DNA of 10,388 bases from positions 1 through 10,388 of the forward strand of contig JAGVFL010000175.1 in the NCBI GenBank assembly GCA_020057645.1, read 5' to 3'. The position numbers and the translations under genes were made by a program. Source of the stretch: Candidatus Omnitrophota bacterium (GTDB lineage: Bacteria > Omnitrophota > Gorgyraeia > Gorgyraeales > Gorgyraeaceae). Below are positions 638-8,615 of this stretch, piece after piece. The first letter of the stretch is position 1, and each line of letters starts with the position of its first letter. The notes beneath the pieces were generated by a model. That model ran no database searches. It saw only the letters and a list, made by a program, of their open reading frames with translations, and had not been told where the DNA came from.

Positions 638-1201
638 ATGGCAGATCTAAAAGAAAAACAAAAAATGTACATATTGATCGCGATATTCGGCATTGCGGGG
701 CTCGCGCTTTATTATAATCTTCTTTTGAAGCCGCAGTTTTCAGGTTTTATCGCGAAAAATAAAGAATTTCGCATTGTGAGAGACAGGGTTAAGAGCGAAG
801 AGATAATGATTGCCAATGAGGCGGGGATAAAAAGACAGCATGAAAATTACGCAAAACAGGCGGAATATCTTGAAAAAAGACTGCCCGGCCAGGACCAGAT
901 TTCAAGCCTTCTTGAAGATTTTTCAAAAGTCGCGGAATCTTCGGGAGTTAAGATACTCAAGATAAAGCCGCTGGAAGCGCCGGTTATCGCGTCCAAACAA
1001 AAAGTTATGAATGACTCCTATTCTGAGTTCCCGATTTTAATAGAAGCCAGGGCCGGTTACCATCAGCTCGGGGCTTTCGTGAATAAAGTAGAGAGCATGG
1101 ACAGATTTATAAAAGTTACTGATATGGACATTGCCGGGATCGATAAAGACCCGCGTCGTCACGATATAAAAATGAGGATAATCACCTATGTCCTTCAATA
1201 A
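638..1201 (+). CDS. pilO: Type IV pilus inner-membrane assembly protein PilO
   Basis: This is the PilO partner of PilN in the inner-membrane alignment complex. The 187-residue protein has a short charged cytoplasmic N-terminus (MADLKEKQK), one transmembrane segment at about residues 11-30, a coiled-coil-like stretch (about 35-85) and a C-terminal ferredoxin-like periplasmic domain. That domain includes the family-typical pattern of a conserved LPGQDQISSLLEDFSK stretch and a late YHQLGAFVNKVESM helix. The start at 638 is chosen because it leaves a normal membrane topology and follows the pilN stop by one base, suggesting translational coupling. An in-frame ATG at 599 would add 13 residues (MWWILRYP...) lying inside pilN and has its G-rich tract directly against the start, so it is less likely. 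The stop overlaps the first codons of pilP. Confidence 0.88.
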   Translation: MADLKEKQKMYILIAIFGIAGLALYYNLLLKPQFSGFIAKNKEFRIVRDRVKSEEIMIANEAGIKRQHENYAKQAEYLEKRLPGQDQISSLLEDFSKVAESSGVKILKIKPLEAPVIASKQKVMNDSYSEFPILIEARAGYHQLGAFVNKVESMDRFIKVTDMDIAGIDKDPRRHDIKMRIITYVLQ

Positions 1202-1562
1202 ACTAAAACAAGTTTACATTCTGACAATGTCAGTTTGTCAACTTACCGCAATAATCAGCAATTGCGCATTTGCTGAAGAGGGGTTTAAGTATGACGCGAA
1301 GTCCAGGAGAGATCCGTTTATCCCGCTTATTTCAGAAACCGGCGGATACGCGTCTGACGCGTACGAGGCAAGCGCGATAGAAGATATACGTCTGGAAGGC
1401 ATTGTGTGGGATGATGCGAAGGGATCCATAGCGATTATAAACGGAGAAATAGCGAAAGAAGGGGATTCCCTGGGTTCTCTAAAGATTTTGAAGATAAATA
1501 AAGACAGCGTTATTTTTGACGTTAACGGAGAAAGCTTGAAGATAGAGCTTAATAAAGAATAA
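1188..1562 (+). CDS. pilP: PilP-like pilus assembly protein with repeat-derived signal peptide
   Basis: PilP bridges the PilN/PilO inner-membrane complex and the PilQ secretin in the periplasm. The 124-residue product has a basic N-terminus, a hydrophobic stretch (about residues 9-25) and a plausible signal peptidase I site after CAFA (residue 29). A DPF motif (about 43-45) and a C-terminal small beta domain of the PilP/GspC type follow (IRLEGIVWDD, GSIAIINGEIAKEGD, then alternating strands). PilP is often a lipoprotein, but the sequence before Cys26 (ISNC) is not a good lipobox. The ATG at 1188 has TGAGGA at 1173-1178 as ribosome site and overlaps the pilO stop. Residues 8-19 are encoded by a copy of the palindromic repeat found elsewhere in the window between genes. 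An in-frame ATG at 1227 lies inside the repeat and is unlikely to be the start. Confidence 0.82.
   Translation: MSFNKLKQVYILTMSVCQLTAIISNCAFAEEGFKYDAKSRRDPFIPLISETGGYASDAYEASAIEDIRLEGIVWDDAKGSIAIINGEIAKEGDSLGSLKILKINKDSVIFDVNGESLKIELNKE
1210..1244 (+). repeat. Palindromic repeat copy 1 (inside pilP)
   Basis: Imperfect inverted repeat with arms of 17 nt (AAGTTTACATTCTGACA and TGTCAGTTTGTCAACTT) around a single A at 1227; 14 of 17 pairs match. Over 36 nt it differs from the copy at 4785 at only two positions. It begins nine bases after the pilO stop and is read in frame as residues 8-19 of PilP. Confidence 0.85.
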
Positions 1563-4771: not shown

Positions 4772-4789
4772 GAGATTTTTGCATATAAG
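4761..4789 (+). promoter_or_regulatory. Possible sigma-70-type promoter for rplU-rpmA-obgE
   Basis: TTGAAA (4761-4766) and TATAAG (4784-4789) are separated by 17 bases and each differs from the bacterial consensus at one position. Transcription would start near 4796, within the left arm of repeat copy 2. It overlaps the last codons of the RNase G gene. Such matches arise by chance in AT-rich DNA, so this is a modest-confidence call. Confidence 0.3.
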
Positions 4790-4823
4790 GTTACACTCTG
4801 ACAATGTCAGTTTGTCAACTTAT
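4785..4823 (+). repeat. Palindromic repeat copy 2 (rng-rplU gap)
   Basis: Inverted repeat with 19-nt arms (ATAAGGTTACACTCTGACA and TGTCAGTTTGTCAACTTAT) around A4804; 15 of 19 pairs match. The left arm is identical to that of the perfect copy at 7259, while the right arm is the variant seen at 1228, so it looks like a hybrid of two arm types. It starts 14 bases after the RNase G stop. Confidence 0.88.
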
Positions 4824-6366: not shown

Positions 6367-6371
6367 GAGTA

Positions 6372-6396
6372 GCGAAGCGAGCATAGCGAGCTTCGC
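6372..6396 (+). repeat. Hairpin in the obgE-proB gap
   Basis: GCGAAGC (6372-6378) and GCTTCGC (6390-6396) form a seven-pair stem with an 11-base loop. Short AGCGA units recur inside (6371, 6376 and 6385). It begins five bases after the obgE stop and lies between TAGGAG (6364-6369) and the proB ATG. It is followed by GCCAACAAAC rather than a T tract, so it is not an evident terminator. Confidence 0.55.
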
Positions 6397-6406
6397 GCCA
6401 ACAAAC

Positions 6407-7258
6407 ATGGAACGCGATAAAATAAAAAAGGCAAAACGGATAGTTATAAAAGTCGGCGCGAGCGTCCTGACGCGTGTAGGGGGCGGTCGCGACCGTACCC
6501 TACGGCTTGATGAGGTTTGGATAAAAAATTTTGCCAAGCAGGTAACGGTTTTGTTCAAAGAAGGCCGCCAGGTGATAATAGTATCTTCCGGAGCCATTGC
6601 GGCAGGGATGGGGCTATTGGGCATGGAAAAGAGACCTAAGAGCTTGCCTGAGCAGCAGGCCTGCGCGGCGCTGGGCCAGGGATACCTCATGAAAACGTAC
6701 GAGGAGCATTTCAAGAAAAACGGTTTTCACGCGGCGCAAATACTTTTAACGTGGGAGGACATAAGGGAAAAACGCAGGTATCTAAATGCGGAAAATACCC
6801 TGCGCGTGCTTTTGAGCAAAAAGGCAGTGCCTGTTATAAACGAAAACGATACAGTCTCCGTGGATGAAATAAAGTTCGGCGACAACGACAAGCTTTCAGC
6901 TTTGGTCGCGAGCCTTGTCTCGGCTGATTTACTCGTCATGCTTACGGACGTAGAAGGATTGTACATAGACGACAAAAAGACCGTAGCCGGCGTCGTAAAG
7001 GATATACACGCGGGCATTGAGAAAATGGCGTGCGGTACTGATAAAGAGTGTTCCCGCGGAGGCATGAAGACAAAACTGGATGCCGCGAAGATAGCCGTTA
7101 AATCAGGCATAGATTGCGTCATAGCCGACGGAAGAGAAAAGGACATCCTTTTAAAGATCGTGAGCGGAAAAAAAGTAGGGACACTTTTTCAAGCCAATAA
7201 GAACAAGATAACAGGCAGGGATTTCTACGACAAAGCCATAAACCGGGTGATTTTATAA
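6407..7258 (+). CDS. proB: Glutamate 5-kinase
   Basis: ProB phosphorylates the gamma-carboxyl of glutamate, the first step of proline synthesis; proA for the next step follows. The 283-residue protein is an amino-acid kinase domain without the C-terminal PUA domain present in E. coli ProB. Visible blocks are VIKVGASVLT (13-22), VIIVSSGAIAAGM (56-68), LPEQQACAALGQGYLM (80-95), PVINENDTVSVDEIKFGDNDKLSAL (142-166) and RGGMKTKLDAA (217-227). Between SVLT and LDEVWIKNFA it has about six residues more than E. coli ProB as recalled, and that loop (VGGGRDRTL) is encoded by a 28-bp palindrome. The ATG at 6407 has no ribosome site beside it. TAGGAG lies at 6364-6369, separated by a hairpin. Upstream obgE does not overlap it. 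Confidence 0.94.
   Translation: MERDKIKKAKRIVIKVGASVLTRVGGGRDRTLRLDEVWIKNFAKQVTVLFKEGRQVIIVSSGAIAAGMGLLGMEKRPKSLPEQQACAALGQGYLMKTYEEHFKKNGFHAAQILLTWEDIREKRRYLNAENTLRVLLSKKAVPVINENDTVSVDEIKFGDNDKLSALVASLVSADLLVMLTDVEGLYIDDKKTVAGVVKDIHAGIEKMACGTDKECSRGGMKTKLDAAKIAVKSGIDCVIADGREKDILLKIVSGKKVGTLFQANKNKITGRDFYDKAINRVIL
6476..6503 (+). repeat. 28-bp palindrome embedded in proB
   Basis: Arms GTAGGGGGCGGTCG (6476-6489) and CGACCGTACCCTAC (6490-6503) pair at 12 of 14 positions, and one of the two exceptions is a G-T wobble. It is unrelated to the repeats between genes. It encodes the loop around residues 24-33 of ProB, a position where the protein is longer than E. coli ProB. It resembles a small mobile palindrome inserted in frame, but only one copy is in the window. 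Confidence 0.6.
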
Positions 7259-8578: not shown

Positions 8579-8615
8579 TAAGGTTACACTCTGACATTGT
8601 CATAGTGTAACCTTA
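8579..8615 (+). repeat. Palindromic repeat copy 4 (proA-lipB gap)
   Basis: Inverted repeat with 18-nt arms (TAAGGTTACACTCTGACA and TGTCATAGTGTAACCTTA) around a central T at 8597; 17 of 18 pairs match. It starts one base after the proA stop and ends six bases before the lipB ATG, so it occupies nearly the whole gap. Compared with the copy at 7259 it differs at the centre base and at one arm position. Confidence 0.92.

Follow-up and report, generated by a model that had tools for sequence, protein, structure and literature searches.

How a palindrome that lies mostly between genes comes to be read inside a protein is the question raised by a pilP-like gene of a Candidatus Omnitrophota bacterium, in which one copy of such a repeat coincides with codons near the N-terminus. 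The window is the whole stretch of DNA analysed here, 10,388 nucleotides of contig JAGVFL010000175.1. The preferred reading, which is considered likely, is that the palindrome belongs to a REP-like family of one Omnitrophota genus, that a RAYT probably spread this family, and that the pilP copy now provides signal-peptide codons at a site that was inherited while its sequence was renewed. The features of the window are as follows.

638..1201, forward strand: pilO; stop codon at 1199-1201, 8 nt before the element; 14-nt overlap with the start of pilP
1188..1562, forward strand: pilP-like / GspB-like gene (Pfam T2SSB), with the element within the putative signal-peptide codons; congeners have their ATG at the same place
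1210..1244, forward strand: the copy of the type-A palindrome within the pilP-like gene; together with base 1209 it codes QVYILTMSVCQL, residues 8-19; identical 35-mer at loci L063 and L077
4787..4821, forward strand: type-A palindrome between rng and rplU; genome G003 has it too, type A being absent in the nine other relatives seen
6476-6503: palindrome with a GTAG tag, in frame within proB; net gain of six residues
7261..7295, forward strand: type-A palindrome in the proB-proA gap; type A in G003 only among the ten relatives seen
8580..8614, reverse strand: type-A palindrome between proA and lipB; among 11 genomes including this one, six have type A, two type B, two other palindromes and one none

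A palindrome family at gene ends

Window positions 1209-1244 read CAAGTTTACATTCTGACAATGTCAGTTTGTCAACTT, translated QVYILTMSVCQL, and form codons 8-19 of the open reading frame beginning at 1188, exactly as given in the preliminary description. The same description put the identity to a copy at 4785 at 34 of 36 positions; the two are indeed copies of one palindrome, and the best register, 4786-4821, gives 33 of 36. Within the stretches examined, the 35-mer at 1210-1244 recurs without change at two further places in the same genome, G000, and once in G003 (L159). Three of its 17 pairs are mismatched and the other exact 35-mers carry the same mismatches, so the pilP copy represents a recurring version rather than a decayed single copy. 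The 36-mer folds as RNA with -11.7 kcal/mol, against a mean of -4.22 (sd 2.07) for shuffled sequences, none of 200 being equally good. An Rfam search of the window returned nothing at gathering thresholds.

The 11-nt core TGACAATGTCA occurs exactly 93 times in the 916,614-base assembly (61.7% complete), and the reversed control pattern not at all. Aligned, the 93 copies give the type-A consensus AA-variable-ACA-3 nt-TGACA-A-TGTCA-3 nt-TGT-variable-TT, some copies being spaced otherwise. Arms covary: in 92 copies, the remaining one being truncated at the end of a contig, 1395 of 1564 cells are Watson-Crick, compared with a shuffled-arm mean of 1240 (sd 13, maximum 1288). Neither GTAG nor CGTC, nor any other common tag, is present among the aligned copies, which as a rule start with AAG or AAT. 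Signal peptides are under low constraint and vary rapidly, and a palindrome could in principle arise by chance from their ordinary codons. For the pilP copy this has next to no probability: the exact 35-mer stands elsewhere in the genome, and 93 cores against none in the control refute it by copy number.

Copies lie close to the ends of genes. Stop codon and element are separated by a median of 1 nt (75 distances from 73 of the 93 copies, the other 20 having no stop distance), with 71 of the 75 values between -31 and +18 nt and the stop codon inside the element in 34; the next start follows at a median of 20 nt (79 distances). These distances depend on gene calls by a home-made codon-score script. 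By the same calls, 62 of the 93 copies lie between co-directional genes, two are convergent, two divergent and two inside a called gene, and 25 are unassigned. The two copies inside a called gene (L013, position 1436; L071, position 1303) coincide with the last codons of the gene upstream, and the L013 copy is open in G003 too, as judged by eye. For 17 further stop distances, the element extends over the stop codon by 7 nt or more. In Escherichia coli, one study reportedly found REPs near stop codons.

With one mismatch allowed, the type-A pattern is found in G003 (76 matches), G010 (82), G006 (18), G007 (7), G011 (7), G005 (6) and G008 (3), and in none of G001, G002, G004 and G009; outside the genus, a single copy is present, in G014 alone of 27 genomes. 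A subfamily, AACTTnACA..TGTnAAGTT, is present in G005 and G006. A second palindrome, type B, has 57 listed places in G002, eight in G008 and four in G010, and none in G000, G001, G003, G004 or G009. In the genus tree, G000, G003 and G008 split from the rest with a support of 91, the G006-G010 and G001-G009-G004 groupings reach 100, and the outgroup placement is weak (47-78).

Probable translation of the palindrome in the pilP-like protein

The gene follows pilN and pilO and precedes a secretin gene. Its product matches the Pfam profile T2SSB (29.7 bits, cut-off 28.4), with CdsD_C below cut-off and no PilP profile match in the Pfam profile search (E 0.001), and some near relatives are called GspB in a public source. 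By profile, the predicted protein is therefore T2SSB/GspB-like, and 'pilP' is a name taken from gene order.

The start codon of this gene precedes the element by 22 nt and falls within the last codons of pilO. Orthologues with a type-A element occur in G000, G006, G007, G010 and G011 (degraded in the last), and with type B in G008 and G002 (left arm lost in the latter); this comparison leaves out G003, whose N-terminus was not recovered, and G005, in which no orthologue was found. From the shared ATG, the frame is open in all seven genomes with an element or remnant. At the other copies with a gene start near or at most 120 nt downstream (70 pairs), the downstream frame is open through the element in two, and an upstream start is available in none. 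The earlier claim that the repeat is open in the pilP frame is thus confirmed, and relatives with and without the repeat align as it would have them: in G001, G004 and G009, which lack the element, the ATG is at the same place and the N-terminus is shorter. The pattern named beforehand as refuting the claim, the same residues encoded by diverged, non-palindromic codons, is absent; the relatives' elements specify other residues with other codons. G006, G008 and G010 have true palindromes there, G007 has an imperfect one, and those of G011 and G002 are degraded.

The palindrome could instead be extragenic here too, forming a hairpin in the pilO-pilP leader, with pilP translated from an ATG at 1227 inside the palindrome or from a later start. 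The centre of the palindrome does supply that in-frame ATG, database open reading frames begin there (P0006, of 111 aa, P0008 and P0010), the home-made gene script also chose it, and PMC3733652 cautions that a REP placed at an N-terminus frequently reflects a wrongly called start. This alternative is nonetheless improbable. An open frame with an upstream start in seven of seven genomes stands against the two and none of 70 pairs elsewhere, and the G007 and G008 elements contain no ATG. A leader starting at 1227 would have no K or R and a lower hydrophobicity (1.43 versus 1.78), but the element-less G009 protein also lacks K/R before its core. From these sequence comparisons, it is very likely that the pilP palindrome is read in frame; as the start lies upstream of it, the element would have become signal-peptide codons.

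What the element contributes to the signal peptide differs among lineages. In the window protein, the best 12-residue hydrophobic window begins at residue 12, and residues 12-19 are element-encoded; the same start, inside the element codons, is seen in six type-A proteins near G000. In the other 27 type-A proteins, the best window starts at residues 17-22, mainly after the element, and in G006, G007, G010 and G011 the element encodes mainly the region before the hydrophobic core. The type-B palindrome reads (F/L)TKRVILVLSIS, combining positive charge and core. Among type-A proteins, the predicted hydrophobic core is thus supplied by the element only in the G000 clade, and it is also so supplied in type B. 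The preliminary description, which had the repeat supply much of the hydrophobic segment, holds for the G000 clade and fails for most relatives, whose core is encoded mainly downstream of the element.

Of 137 homologues, 120 were listed and 119 classified by the authors' own motif rule: 33 are type A, 18 type B, 20 lack a recognised element and 48 have another or a truncated start. All are predicted open reading frames, and that their frames are open therefore adds no independent support. Element-less homologues have a shorter N-terminus, for example MSFNKLAVSIICALVISEAFA. P0007, a homologue that shares 95% identity with the window protein, has a replaced N-terminus (MFFAKNKNRDRDHFYILS..) but retains VCQLTAIISNCAFA.

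Removal of an ancestral lipobox by the insertion, which had also been put forward, was considered and rejected. No lipobox is visible by eye in the congeners and sister genera aligned (G012 has TAC without a preceding hydrophobic residue), and a loose lipobox pattern occurs in two of 119 homologues only (P0067 and P0094, the latter a truncated call). The related proposal that a signal peptide is a safe landing site may hold in part: because the element lies 8 nt past the pilO stop, a position typical of the family, the signal peptide alone does not explain where it landed.

A second in-frame palindrome lies in proB, where the protein reads SVLTRVGGGRDRTLRLDE in G000 and the palindrome is degraded in G003. 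Seven relatives lack it and read SVLTAKGLKLDE (SILTAKGLKLDE in G007), with small changes after; the G011 protein aligns only from residue 25 onwards (GSGRNRSLRLDE), its earlier part being unaligned, and G002 is outside the coverage. Twelve distinct GTAGG..CTAC palindromes occur in the G000 stretches examined. As an in-frame insert with empty sites, proB is a cleaner example than pilP. In the obgE-proB gap, another hairpin-like sequence (AGCGAAGCGAGC..GCGAGCTTCGC) was noted by eye at 6367-6400.

Shared sites and probable replacement of their sequences

Eighteen of the 93 G000 copies have both flanks in the G003 stretches examined. All 18 sites carry an element in G003 (17 with the strict core, one of them rearranged, and one with an altered core base), and the arms are often different. 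Junction tests were performed with 88 G000, 46 G002, 41 G003, 32 G010 and 33 G006 elements, after de-duplication and palindrome scoring, with gene ends lacking an element as controls. Sharing exceeded the control in 20 of 20 comparisons (55-100% versus 0-29%), with p under 0.05 in 18; the two exceptions were G003 to G010 (5/8 versus 1/9, p 0.05) and G006 to G003 (6/11 versus 4/20, p 0.11). Starting from G000, sites were shared with G003 in 15/16 cases (controls 0/16), with G010 in 13/17 (1/25) and with G006 in 16/18 (0/19); towards G000, the values were 16/17 versus 1/24 from G006 and 14/16 versus 2/22 from G010. Sites also coincide between types A and B: 15/21 versus 0/14 for G000 to G002, 15/15 versus 5/17 for G002 to G000 and 10/11 versus 3/11 for G002 to G003. 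As the stretches examined are mostly centred on elements, the tests against G003, whose contigs were chosen for copies and are mostly whole, are the cleaner ones.

At shared sites, base pairs have often changed on both sides. Two-sided changes number 12 (1.9 expected) between G000 and G003, 45 (14.1) between G010 and G000 and 80 (31.5) between G006 and G000; the corresponding one-sided changes are 20, 26 and 25, and exceed the two-sided in the closest pair (20 versus 12). Shared sites with changed palindromes are thus observed for type A, and more weakly between types A and B. Taken together, the shared sites and the two-sided changes point to renewal in place: the sites were probably inherited and their sequence replaced where it stood. 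That neither a target-site duplication nor a precise empty site was defined for type A counts against the preferred reading as a whole.

The main rival explanation, held to be somewhat unlikely, is repeated independent insertion, with palindrome families landing again and again in the same permissive gaps or at the same stop codons. Four kinds of palindrome do occupy the proA-lipB gap in different species, and the position of copies at stops makes targeting near stops plausible. The frame through the pilP element is also the same in G000, G006 and G010, and different in G007 and G011. Set against this is the precision of placement. For pairs with alike upstream protein tails (13/15, 10/14, 16/16, 4/4, 11/16, 5/7, 4/6 and 10/10 over eight genome pairs), the element-to-stop offset is often the same to the base: identical in 10/13 for G000-G003, 6/10 for G010-G000, 3/16 for G006-G000 and 2/11 for G002-G000. 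In these four of the eight genome pairs, agreement surpasses that of shuffled pairs (0.001 or less as small), and it is marginal or absent in G006-G010 (0.07), G002-G010 (0.05), G002-G006 (0.17) and G002-G003 (0.08), the share of shuffles as small running from 0.046 to 0.165 over these four pairs. Furthermore, the pilP elements of G007 and G010 have TGTCACAAGTGT and an unpaired C in common, and one orthologous G000/G003 pair (L035/L159) has kept its left arm and differs in its right arm. In the proA-lipB gap of G001 and G009 (L133, L134), palindromes of still other sequence are present.

Selection may alternatively keep hairpins as RNA elements at operon boundaries, for mRNA protection or translation control, with the families interchangeable there. 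The 62 of 93 copies between co-directional genes, the excess of two-sided changes and the occurrence of different families at one boundary all fit. Conversely, the pilP, rplU and proB-proA sites are element-free in several congeners, so that no single boundary is shown to need a hairpin, and hairpin-templated repair or conversion would also keep the arms complementary. As the explanation of the pattern such selection is unlikely; it is compatible with both renewal in place and repeated landing.

A candidate agent for the spread of the family is available. Y1_Tnp genes occur in all 12 genomes of the genus, and seven (G000, G002, G003, G006, G007, G010 and G011) have a RAYT-type clade of 303-326 aa proteins at least 61% identical to the G010 protein, the G000 gene running off the contig end. 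The clade is absent from G001, G004, G005, G008 and G009; G001, G004 and G009 have neither the clade nor type-A or type-B copies. Counting against the link, G005 (79% complete) has 26 matches per strand and G008 a few, and neither carries the clade. A-like palindromes adjoin both ends of the RAYT-type gene in G002, G003 and G006, the flanking copies being inverted in G002 and in the same orientation in G003. In G007, one palindrome adjoins the 5′ end of the gene and a second lies 495 nt beyond its 3′ end; G010 has one at the 3′ end only, and none was scored beside the gene in G011.

The Pfam Y1_Tnp match of the RAYT-type protein scores 38.5 bits, over 23, and residues H87 and H89 are invariant in five of five. 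Three of these proteins scored 57.8, 54 and 57.4 bits with the NCBI REP-associated model NF047646, below its cut-off of 80 (E 1e-14 to 1e-15, best 1.1e-15), and the match spans residues 36-166 only. Close relatives of the transposase are recorded under Candidatus Omnitrophota or Omnitrophica. In G002, the gene is adjoined by an A-like palindrome and not by type B, which dominates that genome; a type-B transposase was not found, none of the four listed G002 Y1 genes lying within 1 kb of a listed type-B place. Two other Y1_Tnp genes (L153 and L154, at G008:C62 and G006:C32) have long palindromes, of CCACCTGCCAGGTGAGCC or GGTCAACCTCGGAGGTTACCC type, both at one end and within the open frame upstream of the domain.

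It is proposed, in line with the reading of an inherited site and a renewed sequence, that a RAYT, an HUH-type single-strand transposase, would place the element just after the pilO stop, where the start of a signal peptide would tolerate an in-frame insert and the pilP frame would run through it. Later, the sequence would be renewed in place, by conversion from other copies or by transposase replacement, while the site was inherited; the palindrome would now give hydrophobic signal-peptide codons in the G000 clade and in the type-B species. More tentatively, and with somewhat less than an even chance, a change of transposase or of its recognition may have replaced the palindromes at old sites genome-wide, even coding ones, so that the signal peptide was re-encoded by the current palindrome of each lineage.

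Comparison with known systems

The family resembles the RAYT-REP system, as described in the available parts of PMC2817692, PMC3116915 and PMC3733652, in being a short, high-copy palindrome at gene 3′ ends with a candidate Y1/HUH transposase gene adjoined by copies, and in remaining palindromic as the sequence changes. At 35 nt it falls in the 20-40 nt class, in high copy and mainly extragenic (two of 93 copies are covered by a called gene). By comparison with the same partial texts, it differs in that type A has no GTAG/CGTC tag, the transposase of approximately 310 aa scores below the NCBI cut-off, the phylum is Omnitrophota, and sites are common to species with turnover of sequence. According to the available part of PMC2817692, published RAYTs are always flanked by two inverted REPs, which is true here in part only. 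The title of a 1988 review, seen in the reference list of PMC3116915, raises REP evolution by gene conversion. For the question of how REPs spread and whether their sites persist over the long term, this genus offers many orthologous junctions with a kept site and a changed sequence, which make conversion, re-insertion and selection separable.

Like bacterial MITEs, the element is non-autonomous, small and hairpin-forming; unlike them, it is linked to a candidate Y1 transposase and has no defined target duplication.

In-frame REPs, REPs that supply stop codons and the warning about N-terminal start calls are already published in the portion of PMC3733652 available, which also describes a pair of recB genes from Xanthomonas whose REPs differ but occupy approximately the same site. 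Many of the GTAG/CGTC REPs within open reading frames in that portion lie in genes of DNA synthesis and repair, whereas here the gene region is a putative signal peptide and two palindrome types occupy approximately the same codons. Within the partial texts that the literature search covered, no REP-coded signal peptide was found, nor, beyond the recB remark in PMC3733652, any cross-species sites with an exchanged palindrome type.

The likeness to Rickettsia palindromic elements (RPEs) drawn in the preliminary description is apt in one respect, that a palindromic repeat is decoded in frame inside a protein. RPE-4 and RPE-6 are equated with CGTC-type REPs in the accessible part of PMC3733652. 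Unlike RPEs, the present elements are 35-43 nt long and mostly extragenic, and the in-gene case follows from the stop codon upstream. The locus thereby suggests a route by which a mobile hairpin may enter signal-peptide codons: landing at a stop codon that the start of the following gene precedes.
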